A stretch of 43,979 bases of DNA from Bacteroidota bacterium (GTDB taxonomy: Bacteria > Bacteroidota > Bacteroidia > UKL13-3), in contig JAUXUD010000087.1 in the NCBI GenBank assembly GCA_030680835.1, positions 1 to 43,979 of the forward strand. Direction: 5' to 3'. Below are positions 5,105 to 43,206 of the stretch, one piece after another. Both the position numbers and the translations under genes were made by a program. Under the pieces are notes generated by a model. That model saw only the letters and a list, made by a program, of their open reading frames with translations. It made no database searches and was not told the origin of the DNA. Within the stretch, counting starts at the first letter, position 1. Every line of letters begins with the position of its first letter.

Positions 5105-5226
5105 TTATTAGGTATTAGGTATGAGTTATTAGGTATGAGTTATTAGGTATGAGTTATTAGGTATGAGTTATAAGGTATGAGGTATTTTTTTTGCTCATAC
5201 CTCATACCTCATACCTTATACCTAAT
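5105..5226. repeat. Tandem repeat folding into a long hairpin between convergent genes
   Basis: Units of the type TTATTAGGTATGAG recur about four times from 5105. The last part forms a hairpin: arm 5156-5185 pairs with 5197-5226 at 27 of 30 positions, with a T-rich loop. The left end touches the MFS stop codon and the right end touches the stop codon of the DUF2911 gene. A bidirectional terminator is the likely role (inference). Confidence 0.8.
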
Positions 5227-8801: not shown

Positions 8802-10175
8802 TTGTTAAAACTATATTCCGTTTATAAACCGTATTTTAACCAGATTGCAAAGCTAAGTTACCCGATTATAATCGGGCAATTGGGCATTGTATTAATGGGT
8901 GTGGCCGATATTGTAATGATTGGCAAACTGGATGCAGTGAACCTGGCAGCGGCTTCTCTGGCCAATTCGGTTTATTTTTTAATTTGTATTTTGGGTATTG
9001 GTACACTCACTGCGGTTTCACCCCTGGTTGCCAAAGCACGTGGTGCCGGTCATCCCAATCAGTGTGCAATCCTTTTTCGTCAGGCCGTTTGGGCATCGGT
9101 AACATTATCTGCTTTTATCGGAATTGTATTGTTTGTATTAACCGAAAATTTGCATTGGTTCGGACAAACACCCAGGGTAACTTTATTAACCAAAAGTTAC
9201 CTGCACATGTTAAATGTAGGTACATTTCCCATGTTATTGTTTTTGGCCATCAAGCAATACAGCGATGGATTATCCTTTACAAAACCATCAGCCATTGTTA
9301 CCGTTATTGCCCTATTATTAAATGTATTTTTAAACTGGGTATTAATTTATGGAAAGTTTGGTATGCCGCGCTGGGAGCTGTTTGGAGCAGGGGTTGCAAC
9401 TACCCTGTCGCGGGTGGCCATGGCAATAATGATGTATGTGTATATACGGATGAATAAGCTATATAAGCCTTATATGCATTTAAAACAGCATGAACACGAT
9501 GCCCTTTTTTTAAAAGAAATTTTCAAGGTGGGTTTGCCTTCCGGGTTTCAATATTTTTTTGAAATAGCAGCCTTTGCATTCGCAGCCATTATTATTGGCT
9601 GGATGAGTGAATATGCCATGGCTGCGCATCAGATTGCAATTAATATTGCATCGGTCACGTATATGATTGCAACCGGTATTGCAGCCGGAGGTTCCATAGC
9701 AGTGGGGAATGCACTGGGAAGGCGTAATAAAAAGGACATCATCCGTTCGGGAAATGCAGCCTTGATTATGGCAGCTGTTTTTATGGGGAGTTGTGCAATT
9801 GTGCTTGCAATTTTTAACCGTGAGATTGTTTCCTTTTATATTAATGATCCGGAAGTTTCGCAAATGGCCATCTATCTGTTGTGGATAGCTGCCATTTTTC
9901 AGTTAAGTGATGGCATACAATGTGTAGGTTTAGGTATATTGCGTGGTATTGGCGATACCAAAAGACCTACACTCATAACCATTGTGGCATATTGGATTAT
10001 AGGCATTCCGATTGGTTATTGGCTGGGATTTAAAATGGGAATGAGTTTATATGGGGTATGGATTGCCTTGTTAATTGGTTTAACTTTTTCGGCAATATTT
10101 CTTACCGGGAGATTTTATAAACTGAGCCGTAAGGTGGATGTAAATTATCACAATCCTTTAAATGTTGCAAATTGA
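8802..10175 (+). CDS. MATE family efflux transporter
   Basis: 457 residues and about 12 membrane segments in two related halves. The opening IAKLSYPIIIGQLGIVLMGVADIVMIG and the second-half AAHQIAINIASVTYMIATGIAAGGSIAVG are typical of NorM-like MATE proteins, which export cationic drugs or metabolites using Na+ or H+. The start is taken as TTG at 8802: an in-frame TGA at 8796-8798 leaves only AAA and TTG before the conserved N-terminus, and the first ATG would lie inside TM1. A -7-like TACTTTCG is at 8774-8781. The stop codon lies at the edge of a GTACGAT repeat. Confidence 0.9.
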   Translation: MLKLYSVYKPYFNQIAKLSYPIIIGQLGIVLMGVADIVMIGKLDAVNLAAASLANSVYFLICILGIGTLTAVSPLVAKARGAGHPNQCAILFRQAVWASVTLSAFIGIVLFVLTENLHWFGQTPRVTLLTKSYLHMLNVGTFPMLLFLAIKQYSDGLSFTKPSAIVTVIALLLNVFLNWVLIYGKFGMPRWELFGAGVATTLSRVAMAIMMYVYIRMNKLYKPYMHLKQHEHDALFLKEIFKVGLPSGFQYFFEIAAFAFAAIIIGWMSEYAMAAHQIAINIASVTYMIATGIAAGGSIAVGNALGRRNKKDIIRSGNAALIMAAVFMGSCAIVLAIFNREIVSFYINDPEVSQMAIYLLWIAAIFQLSDGIQCVGLGILRGIGDTKRPTLITIVAYWIIGIPIGYWLGFKMGMSLYGVWIALLIGLTFSAIFLTGRFYKLSRKVDVNYHNPLNVAN

Positions 10176-10236
10176 TGTACGATGTACGAATTACGATGTA
10201 CGATGTACAATGTACGAATTACGATGTACGAATTAA
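10174..10236. repeat. GTAC-rich tandem repeat
   Basis: Degenerate copies of GATGTACGAATTAC and GATGTAC follow each other without a gap from the MATE stop codon on. Every unit holds the palindrome GTAC, so the tract can pair with itself. A short relative of the same unit lies at 13561-13587. Confidence 0.8.
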
Positions 10237-10281: not shown

Positions 10282-11193
10282 ATGACACAGCGGTTTAAAG
10301 TGCATCTGGCATTGGGTATTGTATCTCTTATTTATGGGGCTACTTTTACGATTGCCAAAATAGCGATGCCACTTTATATCCAACCCAATGCATTTATTCT
10401 TATAAGAGTATTTGTTGCCTCTGTTTGCATTTTTCTGTTTCACCGGTATTATGTAAAAGGCAAAATTCAGGATAAAAAAGATTTGTTACCCTTACTGGTT
10501 TCTGCATTATTTGGGGTGGCAGCAAATATGTTATTATTTTTTAAGGGACTTGCAATTACCACACCCATCAATGCATCGGTATTGATGTTAAACACACCCG
10601 TATTTGTTTTGATTTTTGCGGGCATTATGCTGAAAGAAAAATTTACCCTGGCAAAAGTTGCAGGCATTCTCATTGCAGCATTTGGGGCATTATTTTTAAT
10701 TGGCGGTACCCGGTTTACATTTGATTCTTCAACTGCTTTGGGTGATTTTTATGTGACCTGTAATGCAATAATTTATGCATTCTATCTGGTATATGCAAAA
10801 CGTTTAATGGTTAAATACCATCCCTTAACAGTTACCCTTTATTCCTTTTTCTTTGGCTTTTTTATGGTATTGCCATTCGGTTTGAACCAATTTATGGAAA
10901 TAGATTTTCTTCACATTCCGGCAGTTATTTGGTTATGCATTGCTTTTATCACTTTGGGTTCAACCTTTTTAACCTATGTTTTAAATGCCTTTGCACTTAA
11001 AAATGCAAGTTCGGCTTTGGTTGGAACCTATATTTATCTGCAACCTGTTTTTGCTGCAATTATTGCCATATTAGCAGGTAAAGATGAATTGAGCAGGCAA
11101 AAAATAATCAGTATGTTCATCGTGTTTGCTGGTGTATACATCGCGGCTTACAGGAAGAAGGCAGAGGGCGTTGGGCAGAGGGTAGGAGGGTAG
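10282..11193 (+). CDS. EamA/DMT family transporter
   Basis: 303 residues from ATG 10282 with about ten hydrophobic segments. The two EamA halves are visible; the first has IYGATFTIAKIAMPLYIQPNAF and PVFVLIFAGIMLKEKFT, the second TFLTYVLNAFALKNASSALVG and FAAIIAILAGKDELS. DMT exporters carry amino acids, metabolites or drugs; the substrate is unknown. A longer frame beginning with TTG at 10252 adds residues not typical of the family. The last residues (EGVGQRVGG) and the stop codon are encoded by the start of the G-rich repeat downstream, so the repeat has grown into, or supplied, the end of the gene. Confidence 0.88.
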   Translation: MTQRFKVHLALGIVSLIYGATFTIAKIAMPLYIQPNAFILIRVFVASVCIFLFHRYYVKGKIQDKKDLLPLLVSALFGVAANMLLFFKGLAITTPINASVLMLNTPVFVLIFAGIMLKEKFTLAKVAGILIAAFGALFLIGGTRFTFDSSTALGDFYVTCNAIIYAFYLVYAKRLMVKYHPLTVTLYSFFFGFFMVLPFGLNQFMEIDFLHIPAVIWLCIAFITLGSTFLTYVLNAFALKNASSALVGTYIYLQPVFAAIIAILAGKDELSRQKIISMFIVFAGVYIAAYRKKAEGVGQRVGG

Positions 11194-11345
11194 GATTGTA
11201 GGAGGGTAGGATTGTATGAAGGTAAGATTGTATGAGGGTAGGATTGTATGAGGGTATGATATAATTACCAAAAATCATTTCATACGCTCCTATCTTCCTC
11301 CCCTCCTATCTTCCTCCCCTCCTATCCTCCTCCCCTCCTACGCTC
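11178..11345. repeat. Purine/pyrimidine-asymmetric 16-bp tandem repeats
   Basis: The left part (11178-11260) repeats GAGGGTAGGATTGTAT about four times and is purine-rich. The right part (11287-11345) repeats CTCCTATCTTCCTCCC about 3.5 times and is almost pure pyrimidine. Both units are 16 bp and partly complementary, so a long imperfect hairpin or a triplex-type structure is possible. The tract fills the gap between the EamA gene and yicC. Confidence 0.8.
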
Positions 11346-11373
11346 CTTCTTCCAACACCCATACCCTCTGCTC

Positions 11374-14984: not shown

Positions 14985-15099
14985 AGTACGAAGTATGAAG
15001 TATGAGGTATGAGGTATTAGGTATAAGGTATAAGGTATGAGGTATAAGGTGTTAGTATTTAACTCATACCTCATCACTCATACCTTATACCTCTCTATA
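14985..15099. repeat. GGTATAAG/GGTATGAG tandem repeat and hairpin
   Basis: Heptamer-like units (GGTATGA, GGTATAA) run from about 14995 to 15056. Arm 15027-15056 pairs with 15062-15091 at about 25 of 30 positions. The unit is the same as at 5105-5226. It lies downstream of the enoyl-CoA hydratase stop codon and upstream of the aldehyde dehydrogenase promoter. Confidence 0.8.
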
Positions 15100-38978: not shown

Positions 38979-40073
38979 ATGTTAGAACTCAGTTTAATTT
39001 TAATTTTATGGGCTTACCTTCTGGTGCAACTGGTTATTTTTGCGGGTATTTTTTCTGAACCCAGGGCAAGAAAGAAACAGCTGGACTGGCCATTTATAAG
39101 TATTCTGGTTCCCGCCCGCAATGAAGCGGAACATATTGAATCCTGTTTGAAGAGTCTGTTACAAATAGATTATCCCTCAGGCGCATTTGAAATTTTGGTG
39201 GGTAATGATGGTTCAACGGACGATACAGGAAAAATTATTGAAAACCTGGCTCATCATAACCCTCAGATCGTTCAATATCAAATTGAGGGACAATTGGGTT
39301 CGGCCAAAGCAAAAGCCAATGTACTTGCTCAATTGGTTCACAAGGCGAAAGGAGAATATATTTTTGTTACCGATGCCGATATTACGGTATCCAAAACATG
39401 GGTTAAAAATTTATTGCCATACCTGCTTGAACCCAATATGGGTATTGTAAGTGGTACCACATTAATTGAAGGTCCCGGATTTTTTGCCGGCATGCAAAGT
39501 CTCGAATGGCTTTTAGCAAATGGTAATTTACTGGGTCTGGATCATTTGGGAATGAAAGGTACTGCAGTTGGAAACAACATGGCTTTTACCCGGGAAGCGT
39601 ACTTTAAAACAGGTGGCTTCGAAAAAATTCCGTTCTCGGTTACCGAAGATTTTCAACTGTTTAATTATATACGAAAACAAGGTTTTAAAACTAGAAATCT
39701 GGGGCAAAGGGCTTCACTTAACCTATCAAAACCACAAACAAATTTTATGAGGCTGTTACACCAACGCAAACGCTGGATGATAGGTGCACAGGGTCTTCCC
39801 TGGTATTGGTTTCCCTTTTTTATTCTTCTCTCCTTATATGCCCCGGTAATTGTTATTTTGTTTTTTATTCATTTCAAAATGGCTTTCACCATCTTGCTAA
39901 TTAAATTTTTATTGCAGAGTGTTTTCCTAATGTATCTTCAAAATAAATTTAGAATCAAAACCCATTATTTTTATTTATTCGTTTTTGAACCCTATTCCAA
40001 TATCATAAATTTTCTAATGCTGGTATTTTATTTGATGCCCATAAAAATGAACTGGAAGGAAAGGAAGTATTGA
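38979..40073 (+). CDS. Membrane GT2 processive-type glycosyltransferase
   Basis: 364 residues. One N-terminal helix (5-25), a GT2 core with VPARNEAEHIE, DAD (132-134), TED (222-224) and QRKRW (262-266), then about three C-terminal helices. The D-DxD-ED-QxxRW set is that of cellulose, chitin and PNAG synthases, but the protein is short. The start directly follows the polysaccharide deacetylase stop. A synthase-deacetylase pair making a deacetylated glycan or lipid-linked sugar is a reasonable guess. Downstream lies the REP-repeat region. Confidence 0.85.
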   Translation: MLELSLILILWAYLLVQLVIFAGIFSEPRARKKQLDWPFISILVPARNEAEHIESCLKSLLQIDYPSGAFEILVGNDGSTDDTGKIIENLAHHNPQIVQYQIEGQLGSAKAKANVLAQLVHKAKGEYIFVTDADITVSKTWVKNLLPYLLEPNMGIVSGTTLIEGPGFFAGMQSLEWLLANGNLLGLDHLGMKGTAVGNNMAFTREAYFKTGGFEKIPFSVTEDFQLFNYIRKQGFKTRNLGQRASLNLSKPQTNFMRLLHQRKRWMIGAQGLPWYWFPFFILLSLYAPVIVILFFIHFKMAFTILLIKFLLQSVFLMYLQNKFRIKTHYFYLFVFEPYSNIINFLMLVFYLMPIKMNWKERKY

Positions 40074-40117
40074 AAGAGCATAAAGCATAAAACTTGTGTT
40101 TAAATGCTAATTATTAA

Positions 40118-40340
40118 ATCCCGAAGGGAAGCCAATACTATAGTGTCAATATTATAGGAATGACAATTGATTTTATAATCCCCAAACCCCGAATCAAATT
40201 ATTATTTGCCATTATTCAAACCCGAAGGGTTGTCATTATTATAGAAATTTCAATTGAAATCCGGAATTCCCAAACCCCGAAGGGGTGATATAAAATCAAG
40301 TGCCCAAAATTATTGTTGCAAATCAAAAATCACCCCGATT
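40118..40340 (+). repeat. Left REP-like array
   Basis: Hairpin cores: CCCGAAGGG (40120-40128), AACCCGAAGGGTT (40219-40231) and ACCCCGAAGGGGT (40274-40286), plus two half copies (about 40186-40193 and 40331-40340). The spacers share TATTATAG-AAxxxCAATT with the array on the other side of the transposase gene, but in the opposite orientation. Copies are degenerate. The array begins just after the GT2 gene and ends 22 bases before the transposase stop codon. Confidence 0.8.
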
Positions 40341-40362
40341 ATTAAACACAAGTGACAACAAA

Positions 40363-40845
40363 TTATTCAATCCAATCAAATAAATATTTTTCATTATATT
40401 CAATTTCGAAATGCTTTAAATATTCCAAATATTCTGTTTTAAATGTTTTCTTTTTGTGGTGTTCTTCCTGGTTTAAAATGTAATTATATACGTTCTGAAT
40501 CTGTGAATGTGAATATGAAAAAATTCCAAATCCTTCCTGCCAGCAGAATTTCTCTTTAATAAATTTATTATCATTGATAAAATTACAGGAATTATTTTTG
40601 ATATCACGCACTAAATCTGAAGCTGCCATTGATGGTTTCAATCCAATAAATGCGTGAATATGATCCGGCATTCCATTCACAATAATGGATTTTTGCTTTT
40701 TGCCATTTATGATGCCGGCAATGTATTTATGTAAATCATCTTTCCATGATTTATCGATTAGATTTTCTCTGCCTCTAACCGCAAAAACAACCTGAACATA
40801 TAATTGTGAAAATGTTGCGACCCTGTTAACGTTATTAATTTTCAT
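40363..40845 (-). CDS. REP-associated tyrosine transposase (IS200-like, Y1)
   Basis: 160 residues. The HUH motif is His62-Ile-His64 in GMPDHIHAFIG. The catalytic tyrosine is Tyr122 in YNYILNQEEHH, and Gln126 stands four residues later as in IS608 TnpA (Tyr127, Gln131). The opening TFSQLYVQVVFAVRGREN and the end HFEIEYNEKYLFDW are typical of Bacteroidota single-copy IS200-like proteins. It should cut and join single-stranded DNA at hairpins. Arrays of CCCCGAAGGGG hairpins lie on both sides in inverted orientation; the first palindrome is only about 25 bases before the ATG. There is no TnpB partner. The gene is intact. Confidence 0.9.
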   Translation of the reverse strand: MKINNVNRVATFSQLYVQVVFAVRGRENLIDKSWKDDLHKYIAGIINGKKQKSIIVNGMPDHIHAFIGLKPSMAASDLVRDIKNNSCNFINDNKFIKEKFCWQEGFGIFSYSHSQIQNVYNYILNQEEHHKKKTFKTEYLEYLKHFEIEYNEKYLFDWIE

Positions 40846-40868
40846 TTTTGGTTATATATAAATTGTAC

Positions 40869-41155
40869 CACCCCTTCGGGGTTTTGAATTAAATGTGAAT
40901 TGTGTCATTTTCTATAATATTATCACCCCTTCGGGGTTTTGAATTAAATGTGAATTGTATCGTTTTCTAAAATATTATCACCCCTTCGGGGTTTTAATAT
41001 TTGATGAATTCTATTATATTCTATAATAACATTGCCCCTTCGGGGTTTTAATATTTGGTGAATTGTATCATTTTCTATAATATTATCACCCCTTCGGGAT
41101 TTTTAATATTCGGTGAATTGTATTATTTTATAAAATAACCTCTCACCTTTGGAAT
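40869..41155 (-). repeat. Right REP-like array, units of 54-55 bp
   Basis: CCCCTTCGGGG occurs at 40871, 40926, 40981 and 41035, CCCCTTCGGGA at 41089, and a decayed copy (CACCTTTGG) near 41144, at spacings of 55, 55, 54, 54 and about 55 bases. The spacers are themselves similar (GTGAATTGTATCATTTTCTATAATATTAT-like), so this is a tandem repeat and not CRISPR. The core forms a stem with a TTC/TTCG loop. The array lies in inverted orientation to the left one. Confidence 0.9.
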
Positions 41156-41548
41156 ATTGTTATATGTAATTTTATATTTCTTGTTTGTTATTGTTTTGTT
41201 GTTTAATATTTATGATGGGACAAATAATGGTAATAGAATTCAAAGATATATTCTGAAATTTACTTTTTGATTTTTAGAATCTGTAGAAACGTAAAAAGAC
41301 TTTTTGTAATTTCCAGCTAAACATATTTGATAATTATTACACGGAGGATTTGATAAATGATACCACTTCTTGTTATTCCTATGCTTTGAGGTTTTTTAAT
41401 TTTGAAAAAATGTATTTTAATCAATTTTTGAATGCATCTATCAAAAATAAAAAACATTCCTAAACAGATTAATTCTCAATCGTTTAAATAATTATCCCAT
41501 TAATGGGATTTAATTTGGAAATTGCTTATGGTTACACAGGTTCAAAAA
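41156..41548. other. AT-rich region without genes between REP arrays
   Basis: Nearly 400 bases with no open frame of note. The only structure is a perfect 16-base palindrome, ATCCCATTAATGGGAT, at 41494-41509. A GGAGG at 41343-41347 precedes a ten-codon frame that I do not call. Confidence 0.5.
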
Positions 41549-41670
41549 CCCCGAAGGGGTGATACTAAGATTTTCAATCCCGAAGAGATGATATTATTGA
41601 AGGGATGATATTATTCTAGAAACAGCATATGGTATCCCAAATTCCAAAACACCGAAGGGGTGATACAATT
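41549..41670 (+). repeat. Outer REP-like copies, forward orientation
   Basis: CCCCGAAGGGGTGATA at 41549-41564, decayed copies TCCCGAAGAGATGATA (from 41578) and GAAGGGATGATA (from about 41598), and CACCGAAGGGGTGATA at about 41650-41665. The conserved TGATA after the hairpin is the same flank as in the arrays nearer the transposase. They end about 40 bases before the stop codon of the GT39-like gene. Confidence 0.8.
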
Positions 41671-41706
41671 CATTTAAATTTATTATTGAAATAATTTGTG
41701 ATAAAC

Positions 41707-43206
41707 CTATTGAATGTCTGTTCTCCCCAATAAGTGAAATAATTTACATTCTTGCATTGATTCTATTTCCTTTACTACAAAATGATTCCTGATTTCTTCC
41801 TCATGTTTCCAATTAATAGTTATTACATCTATATTATTTGGTAAAGTATGGATATTGTTTTGCCATAATTCCGACTTAAACCCCTTACGCTGATCCTCCT
41901 GAATGTAAAAAAACATGGCACAATCAAAATTCTGATCATAAACAAAAAGTTTCTCTGTTTTATATTTTTCTGCTCTTAATGCTGTTAGAAAAGGCTTTAA
42001 ATATTGTGTTTCTTTTTCAAACATATTTTTTTTAATGATAAGAGAAAGTGGCCAGCATGAAAATAAAAGCAGGCTATAAAAAATTGTTCTGGATAAAGTA
42101 ATCTGCCTTTTTTTTATTAATTCAATGATGCTCACTGCGGTAATAAGTGCCATCAGCGGATACCAAATGGCATCGTACCAATCTTTCATGGTTTTGCTTT
42201 GTGAAATGGATAGTATACAGAAAAACCAAACCAGTATAATAAATTTTAGCAATTGAATTTCTTTGGTTTTTTCTTTTCTGATGACAATATGTAAAGCAGG
42301 AAATAAAAACAATATCCAGGGCATAAAATATTGCTGGTCAAACATCCGAAACAAGAAAAACAAAGCGTGATTTCCTTCATGTGTTTGAGGCTCAATTATT
42401 TCAAACCGACCTTTGAATTCCATATCCCATACCGCTTGCAAAAAGCCTGGATCCAGTTGTTCCCGCATAAAGTACCATGTAAAAACTATTGTTGCAATTG
42501 TGCCAAAAACAATCCAGAACGAAGGTTTTTTGCATGTTGCCACCAATTTTTTATTTAGCAATAGCCACATAAAAAAGGAAGGTAGTAACATGATAATTCC
42601 CGGGCCTTTTGTTAGGGTAGCAAATAATAATCCCAGTCCGAATAACAGCAATGCAAGCATTTGTTTTTTACCCAATTCAACAGTATAAACAAAAAAAGAA
42701 AGGCAACAGAATAAACTCCAAAAAACAAAAGTAGTATCCGTATCACCCGTTCGTGCAATATGCCATTGGAAAAAACCAACTGAACTAAGCAGAATGACCG
42801 CACTCAACATTGCACTTGCAAAGTTTTTTAAATAATAATAACCAAAGGCATATAATAATAGGATTGAAAAAAGTGCAAACAAAGCAGCCGGCATCCTGAT
42901 TGCAAGTTCGGGATTATTGGGCATAATCTTTAGGCTGATTGCTGCAATCCAAACATATAATGGAGGTTTTGTGCAAAATCTTTCGGGTAATTCATTAAAA
43001 TTATAAACCAAAAACAGGTGGGGATTTTTCAGCATGTTTTGTGCATTAATTAAATAACAGGATTCATCCCAAACCCTTAATGTCAGCCGATCCAGGTGCA
43101 GAAAAACAACAAAATATGAAACGAATAGTAAAATAACCAATCCAAAAATAAATTGCCGGTGTCCTGAATTGCCAAATAGTTTATAGTTTCTAAAGTATGT
43201 TTTCAT
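41707..43206 (-). CDS. GT39/ArnT-like membrane glycosyltransferase
   Basis: 499 residues with about 11 membrane segments and a soluble C-terminal part of about 120 residues. VWDESCYLINAQNML (Asp47, Glu48) is the catalytic acidic motif after TM1 in PMT/ArnT proteins; CTKPPLYVW and ATLTKGPGI are further family hallmarks. It should transfer a sugar from a polyprenyl-phosphate donor to a lipid, glycan or protein on the outer face of the inner membrane. The donor could come from one of the GT2 enzymes in this window. It is isolated from them by the REP region and divergent from the TatD gene. Confidence 0.82.
   Translation of the reverse strand: MKTYFRNYKLFGNSGHRQFIFGLVILLFVSYFVVFLHLDRLTLRVWDESCYLINAQNMLKNPHLFLVYNFNELPERFCTKPPLYVWIAAISLKIMPNNPELAIRMPAALFALFSILLLYAFGYYYLKNFASAMLSAVILLSSVGFFQWHIARTGDTDTTFVFWSLFCCLSFFVYTVELGKKQMLALLLFGLGLLFATLTKGPGIIMLLPSFFMWLLLNKKLVATCKKPSFWIVFGTIATIVFTWYFMREQLDPGFLQAVWDMEFKGRFEIIEPQTHEGNHALFFLFRMFDQQYFMPWILFLFPALHIVIRKEKTKEIQLLKFIILVWFFCILSISQSKTMKDWYDAIWYPLMALITAVSIIELIKKRQITLSRTIFYSLLLFSCWPLSLIIKKNMFEKETQYLKPFLTALRAEKYKTEKLFVYDQNFDCAMFFYIQEDQRKGFKSELWQNNIHTLPNNIDVITINWKHEEEIRNHFVVKEIESMQECKLFHLLGRTDIQ

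Follow-up and report, generated by a model that had tools for sequence, protein, structure and literature searches.

REP-like hairpin units in inverted arrays around an IS200-class Y1 transposase gene of a Bacteroidota bacterium

Y1 transposases (TnpA) have been sorted into subclasses by Quentin et al. (2018; PMC6006769). Table 1 of that survey lists subclass 1.2 with the motifs DH[IV]H, WQ and YIKNQKEHH, a median length of 148 amino acids (aa), hosts among Cyanobacteria and Bacteroidetes, and the entry 'no' for repetitive extragenic palindromes (REPs); the survey's statements on this subclass add that typical IS200 end structures are generally missing. The REP search described there was directed at TnpA-REP-encoding genomes and at stems of ≥ 7 bp with GT[AG]G 0-2 nt to their 5′ side, and because of these two limits it could have missed units such as those described here. 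In the literature that we searched, which covered few subscription papers, we found no report of REPs for subclass 1.2. Here we analyse a 43,979-nt stretch of DNA, hereafter the window, which is the whole contig JAUXUD010000087.1 (C72 in our numbering) of a Bacteroidota bacterium (assembly GCA_030680835.1, our G000; 4.30 Mb in 104 contigs) and contains a Y1 HUH transposase gene between inverted arrays of hairpin units. We favour the reading, at a probability of roughly 0.72, that gene and units constitute a REP-like system of an IS200-class (subclass 1.2) transposase in which TAG is likely the cutting and joining site. At the level of sequence, our comparisons establish that inverted units bracket the gene, that the unit is dispersed, that hairpin and linker follow the protein, and that paralogous arrays of a relative differ by whole units.

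The transposase and its flanking units

The window protein matched the Pfam family Y1_Tnp (E 7.3e-23). An earlier sequence-only reading of the window had described it as intact, and this held: H62, H64, Y122 and Q126, the Y1 HUH catalytic motifs, were invariant in a 16-sequence alignment, and in a 41-sequence alignment H62, Y122 and Q126 were again invariant while H64 was kept in ≥ 90%. The same reading had called the protein a REP-associated tyrosine transposase (RAYT), a name that does not apply in its strict sense. The Y motif of the protein is YILNQEEHH and not the Y---NP motif of Table 1 in PMC6006769, the protein scored 27.4 bits against a cut-off of 80 for the NCBIfam model REP_Tyr_transpos, and the repeats have a 5-bp stem and no GT[AG]G (see below). 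It passed the NCBIfam model transpos_IS200 (61.6 bits, cut-off 55) and carries all of the subclass 1.2 motifs DH[IV]H, WQ and Y---Q--HH. In a sequence search of the PDB, the nearest entries were the TnpA proteins of ISDra2 (2xm3, E 1.7e-11) and IS608 (E 5e-8), and the Escherichia coli TnpA-REP structure 4er8 was not among the 11 matches up to E 10. An AlphaFold2 model (mean predicted local distance difference test score 86.8, predicted template modelling score 0.74), in which about 30 residues follow the Tyr helix, gave the same order in a fold search: ISDra2 was found with Z 15.0 (root-mean-square deviation 2.5, 108 aligned residues), whereas 4er8 (Z 11.4, deviation 3.0, 114 aligned) came behind ISDra2 and IS608. 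By the criteria tested, the window protein is an IS200-class subclass 1.2 enzyme and not a class 2 RAYT.

We scored units in the window against a 30-nt consensus, with a loose cut-off of ≥ 18/30 (Table 1). Four array units reached 27-29, and the background at this cut-off comprised 14 other places in the window, all scoring 18-19, as compared with 5, 10 and 10 places in three base-shuffled windows. The inverted arrangement noticed earlier was confirmed, with reverse units to the right of the gene, forward units to its left, and the tails of the nearest units on either side pointing at the gene. Likewise, consensus scoring recovered the right array of five clear units and one decayed unit, at spacings of 55, 55, 54, 54 and 55 bp, and Tandem Repeats Finder (TRF) reported a tandem repeat of period 55 there. 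The left array (40116, 40217 and 40272; spacings 101 and 55 bp) had been called degenerate; it too contains a 55-bp step, from 40217 to 40272. The hairpin said to be common to the units is also intact in the innermost right one (40855-40884), whose tail lacks a TAG. Further forward copies do lie to the right (41546, 41575, 41647 and a half unit at 41592); these far-right units are 77% identical to the left ones over 70 nt at a distance of 1375 bp, so that the gene and the right array are bracketed by forward units. The duplication at 41575..41621 consists of the 3′ half of the hairpin and the tail, and its second tail ends in TAG. Such half units of about 17 bp in tandem were seen in two genomes, namely in G000 (window 41582-41615 and contig C1:21802) and on contig C121 of G028 (L211).

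Successive 132-nt stretches of the array, spacers included, are 69-75% identical. A regular period and a palindromic repeat would also be expected of an array resembling clustered regularly interspaced short palindromic repeats (CRISPR), and cas genes were not searched for; spacers common to the units and units in two orientations make this explanation extremely improbable. Another possibility is that the locus is the remnant of an IS200/IS605 insertion sequence in decay, with end hairpins that chance duplication has multiplied. In its favour, the protein passed the IS200 model, the transposases of ISDra2 and IS608 are its closest relatives of solved structure, and decayed units are present. 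In IS608, as in IS200/IS605 elements, the left and right end hairpins lie on the same strand and in one direction. The units flanking the window gene are inverted, unlike the IS608 ends. Moreover, the genome has three full Y1 genes and one fragment without near-identical copies among them, the other two full genes being only 54% and 36% identical to the window's; no other open reading frame (ORF) of ≥ 60 aa was found between 40074 and 41706, and the locus has no TnpB-sized ORF. In other genomes, 66 of 80 loci also preserve the layout, and we regard a decaying insertion sequence as very improbable.

Table 1. Transposase gene and REP-like units of the locus (positions in the window; R1, repeat model built from other genomes, see text; n/30, consensus score)
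Feature	Position	Strand	Remarks
REP-like unit, hairpin slightly decayed, TAG tail	40116..40145	+	21/30; downstream of gene, tail towards gene
REP-like unit, intact hairpin AACCCGAAGGGTT + 10 nt + TAG	40217..40246	+	R1 E 7.5e-5
REP-like unit, intact hairpin, no TAG in tail	40272..40301	+	R1 E 0.77, partial; 55 bp from previous
Y1 HUH transposase gene	40363..40845	-	160 aa; DHIH, WQ, YILNQEEHH: TnpA-Y1 subclass 1.2 signature
Right-array unit 1, hairpin intact, no TAG in tail	40855..40884	-	Adjoins gene start; consensus score
Right tandem array	40869..41137	.	TRF: period 55, 4.9 copies, 84% matches, score 333
Right-array unit 2, hairpin + 10 nt + TAG	40910..40939	-	R1 E 4.6e-6
Right-array unit 3, hairpin + 10 nt + TAG	40965..40994	-	R1 E 2.9e-5
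Right-array unit 4, one stem pair broken, TAG tail	41019..41048	-	27/30; no R1 match
Right-array unit 5, one stem pair broken, TAG tail	41073..41102	-	R1 E 7.3e-5
Right-array unit 6, decayed	41128..41157	-	20/30
Outer forward unit, intact hairpin, no TAG in tail	41546..41575	+	Consensus score
Outer forward unit + 17-bp half-unit duplication	41575..41621	+	R1 E 0.0062; TRF 41582-41615, period 17
Outer forward unit, partly decayed, no TAG in tail	41647..41676	+	Consensus score

The unit plan in related loci

We scanned GTDB species genomes for the transposase and compared the best 80 of at least 547 loci. These came mostly from records named Bacteroidota, and also from Ignavibacteria, Brocadia, Chloroflexi, Anaerolineales and Neomarinimicrobiota; many are metagenome-assembled genomes, whose bins may be mixed. 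Hairpin density in the first 250 bp was 9.3 per kb downstream and 9.5 per kb upstream of the gene, compared with 0.5-1.6 beyond 1 kb, roughly a ninefold difference. Exactly 5 bp of stem and 3 nt of loop made up 437 of the 568 hairpins within 600 bp of the gene. TAG followed this 13-nt hairpin at a distance of 10 nt 205 times (18.0% per strand), as against 0-1.9% for other offsets and 2.7% for the same offset at far hairpins. The unit can be written as A-[5-bp stem, 3-nt loop]-10 nt-TAG. In a consensus of 212 units, for which TAG was a selection criterion (the fixed offset having been established separately without it), conservation extended from -7 to about +22 of the loop centre and faded outside, and the base before TAG was mostly A or G. 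The consensus has no GT[AG]G just 5′ of the hairpin. Within 20 nt behind TAG, ATG was over-represented, occurring in 105 of 211 units versus 38 for GTA, at no single position.

A strict count, which demands a perfect 5-bp stem and leaves decayed units out, gave 201 hairpin-plus-TAG units in 108,659 bases within 700 bp of the gene and 15 in 346,853 distant bases, while 100 dinucleotide shuffles of the near sequence yielded a mean of 0.58 and a maximum of 4. At least one unit was present within 700 bp in 66 of the 80 loci, and units were present on both sides in 31. When sites were picked by their tail alone, a perfect 5-bp stem stood at the right place in 51% of 244 near sites and in 4% of 264 far ones; sliding the partner strand of the near sites by 1-3 nt left 0% perfect stems. 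All four Watson-Crick pairs occur at every stem position. The orientation seen in the window also recurs: upstream of the gene, the closest unit is forward in 44 of 53 loci, and downstream of the gene it is reverse in 36 of 44. Of the 44 loci whose closest upstream unit is forward, 37 have the TAG of that unit 35-81 nt ahead of the matched gene start, a position that would suit self-regulation.

Hairpins of this kind might instead serve neighbouring genes as transcription terminators or RNA regulatory elements, given that they are GC-rich, mostly intergenic and, in the window, followed on one strand by T-rich sequence. This we consider very improbable. Neither side of the hairpin carries a T run in the consensus, Rfam gave no match up to E 0.1 in 39900-41800, and the conserved tail and TAG offset follow the protein, with hairpin density centred on the Y1 gene.

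Dispersal, arrays and the tie between gene and repeat

The sequence CCCCGAAGGGG occurs 15 times in the 4.3-Mb genome, six of them at the locus, and 0 times when read backwards. A repeat model, R1, was built without the window's genome from 52 units beside genes of other genomes, hand-thinned for variety from 107 distinct units of the clade. At E ≤ 0.01 it found 18 sites in the window's genome; five belong to the locus, and the remaining 13 are spread over 10 further contigs. These dispersed copies have the unit of about 30 nt in common and not the preceding 32 nt, and 10 of the 13 overlap no ORF of ≥ 100 aa (three do). The REP-type system proposed by the sequence-only reading is supported: that reading had named a lack of other copies and of any association in relatives as the outcome that would speak against it, and we found copies on 10 further contigs and the association across the transposase clade.

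The same genome holds a second repeat type. The Y1 gene on contig C42, which is the one 54% identical to the window's, has its own repeat, CCCCGATGGGGTCGCATGTTTATAG, with 7-bp stems and 37 copies (≤ 3 mismatches) on 13 contigs (e.g. C42:116885-116947). Of these copies, 34 are arranged as 17 inverted pairs, tail to tail, whose TAGs lie 13-15 nt apart. Such pairs resemble REPINs (paired, inverted REPs), so that one genome has both a paired and a partly tandem system. Copy numbers of 18 for the window type and 37 for the C42 type are below the usual count for REPs, which is given as > 100 per genome in PMC2817692.

Repeat and protein vary together. In Mantel tests on 65 of the 80 loci (loci that lacked a strict unit up to 800 bp away, or whose matched stretch contained a stop, were left out), protein distance correlated with linker distance at r 0.67 and with hairpin distance at r 0.59, neither being reached in 5000 permutations; shared descent of the flanking DNA contributes to these values, yet conservation is limited to the unit. 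Within the genus, the repeat pattern of G009 (≤ 3 mismatches) was found 31 times in G009, four times in G012 and 0 times in the other 17 of the 19 genomes (reversed control, 0), and close members of the G009 gene were confined to G009 (L031, L037) and G012 (L030). The TAG layout lay within 700 bp of 10 of 11 closer paralogues of the genus (51-100% identity; 4 of 28 genus loci, fragments or broken, were left out of the paralogue count). A search at order level, covering 64 genomes all labelled as one family, gave R1 matches at E ≤ 0.01 in nine; all nine have a Y1 sequence, G055 a fragment only, and the 14 genomes without a Y1 match gave 0. Matches were found in 8 of 17 genomes with a close homologue versus 1 of 47 others (p 4e-5, with the cut-off chosen afterwards and the window's own genome included).

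Several results weigh against a REP-like system tied to this transposase. Fourteen of the 80 loci, including some that are truncated by contig ends, lack a strict unit within 700 bp. Presence of any Y1 gene was not significantly associated with R1 matches in the 64 genomes (9/50 versus 0/14, p 0.19), and the split by close homologue depends on a post hoc cut-off and counts the genome under study. At E ≤ 1, R1 matched in 8 of 19 genus genomes, the set of matches in G003 being a 30-bp tandem repeat. G018 (96% complete) carries a related repeat in 23 copies, some arrayed and others single, and no Y1 gene by sequence or profile; two of its contigs (C83 and C88; L204, L205) begin inside an array, so the gene may be lost or missing from the assembly. 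G013 has 16 copies and one distant Y1 gene only (27%), G034 has a 72% homologue and no R1 match, and G005 has a relative of the C42 gene and no match to the C42-type pattern. Around the 13 distant genus paralogues (27-44% identity), the TAG layout is absent from the nearest 700 bp in every case, and the claim accordingly holds for this clade and not for all of subclass 1.2. No pairing between a guide and TAG was found: when positions 5′ of the hairpin were tested for mutual information with the base preceding TAG, the signals were only weak and looked phylogenetic. Finally, dispersed copies without the array spacer indicate that the 55-bp unit is not what disperses in the window's genome.

Some of the distant subclass 1.2 paralogues have palindromes of their own, without the TAG layout. 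L040 (1961-2305) shows a 20-nt palindrome mostly every 46-47 bp, L038 (2013-2121) a 19-nt palindrome every 30 bp, and L048 a third type.

The sequence-only reading had thought tandem units this regular unusual for a REP system. Such spacing is not special to this locus. In the relatives, 42 of 56 pairs of same-strand neighbours less than 200 bp apart were spaced at 42-63 bp, 31 of them at 49-54 bp, although by the strict test runs of ≥ 3 units occurred in only 8 of the 80 loci (runs of ≥ 2 in 18). The observation is right and more general than was supposed. What makes the arrays grow is a separate matter. The hairpins could be REP-like and recognised by TnpA while the arrays grew only by replication slippage or unequal recombination, with TnpA uninvolved, and we take this as a serious contender that falls somewhat short of even odds. 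Among tandem pairs 38-62 bp apart, spacers are near-identical within most multi-unit runs (L110, L118, L126, L149, L151) and, by eye, unrelated between species, as local duplication would give. G009 has arrays of 55-bp units on contigs without a Y1 match, with a spacer that looks homologous, by eye, to the one beside the gene; these paralogous arrays differ by whole units (1, ≥ 4 and ≥ 6, the last two running into contig ends), and as the copies are also alike outside the arrays, they are parts of a larger repeat. The dispersed copies without spacer in the window's genome fit growth by local duplication as well. Slippage, however, sets no preferred period, yet the 49-54-bp cluster is seen across species, and in L137 two successive spacers are unlike while the spacing is kept (53 and 50 bp). 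The preferred period is fixed by the data, and both TnpA and recombination are compatible with them as the setter of unit number. Under the reading that we favour, the transposase may build or spread the array.

The genes flanking the locus match models for glycosyltransferase family 2 and PMT-type mannosyltransferase. A comparison aimed at an empty site gave no clean case: for the gene at 41707-43206, to the right of the locus, the genus offers a single good relative, that of G002 (60% identity), where the neighbouring DNA is different. There (L190, G002:C91), ORFs that look like a toxin-antitoxin pair adjoin the relative of the PMT-type gene on the side that holds the repeats and the transposase in the window. 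Elsewhere in the window lie arrays of 7-, 8-, 14- and 16-bp units (5106-5223, 10174-10235, 11178-11347 and 14993-15050) with motifs such as TATTAGG, GTATGAG and GATGTAC, in some cases with an array of the complementary motif close behind. Heptamers like these adjoin a dispersed copy on contig C60.

A possible mechanism and comparison with known systems

By analogy with IS200/IS605 elements and RAYTs, TnpA would bind the folded hairpin on single-stranded DNA, probably on the lagging-strand template. Tyr122 would then cleave beside the TAG that follows the 3′ side of the stem after 10 nt, and the end would be joined to another such site. Joining at distant sites would spread the unit of about 30 nt, whereas an end joined to the TAG of a unit already in place would append a unit of about 50 nt head to tail and so give rise to arrays, whose length recombination or slippage could subsequently alter. 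The leader hairpin may also regulate the transposase gene. Cutting and joining at TAG would bring the fixed 3′ limit, the dispersal, the tail-to-tail pairs and the head-to-tail arrays under one scheme. A bolder version, which we offer tentatively and think rather unlikely, is that an IS200-class lineage was domesticated separately from the RAYTs and that its one-hairpin element acts as both ends and the target of a tiny single-strand transposon; insertions of about 50 nt at TAG would build the arrays, and an array would be a record of TnpA events.

REPs are widespread, and the finding bears on the question of how a transposase became a REP-maintaining host gene. It provides a defined candidate substrate (13-nt hairpin, 10-nt linker, TAG), many natural enzyme-repeat pairs, and one genome in which one such system consists mainly of inverted pairs and another is partly tandem.

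The locus shares features with each of the systems closest to it. As in the REPtrons of class 2 REP/RAYT systems, e.g. those of E. coli, a Y1 HUH gene lies between inverted palindromes, dispersed copies are mostly extragenic, REPIN-like inverted pairs occur (at the C42 paralogue), and types of gene and repeat are matched. It differs from them in its Q-type rather than NP-type Y motif, a 5-bp stem, a TAG 10 nt 3′ of the hairpin instead of GTAG at its 5′ foot, head-to-tail arrays with a preferred period, and tens rather than hundreds of copies. IS200/IS605 elements (IS608, ISDra2) are closest in protein sequence and fold, and there too, at the right end, a hairpin is followed at fixed distance by a short site. 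In IS608 this distance is about 10 nt. The present locus, in contrast, lacks a TnpB-sized ORF and a second end of like direction, has no near-identical copy, and is flanked by inverted units.

Two groups in the survey of Quentin et al. deserve comparison. Subclass 2.6 TnpA of Bacteroidetes, as presented in PMC6006769, likewise has atypical hairpins on its flanks that recur at other places in the genome; it is, however, a class 2 protein (NH[LIV]H, YIH[QN]NP) with a median of 179 aa, and the structures are described there as atypical. With subclass 1.2 as tabulated in the same survey, the clade agrees in DHIH, WQ and Y---Q--HH, in a length of about 150-160 aa, in low copy number, in low identity between the copies of one genome and in Bacteroidota hosts. 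It departs from that entry in one respect, being tied to a REP-like unit where REPs are given as 'no'. The clade combines an insertion-sequence protein with RAYT-like behaviour in the genome, although its subclass has been listed as REP-free.

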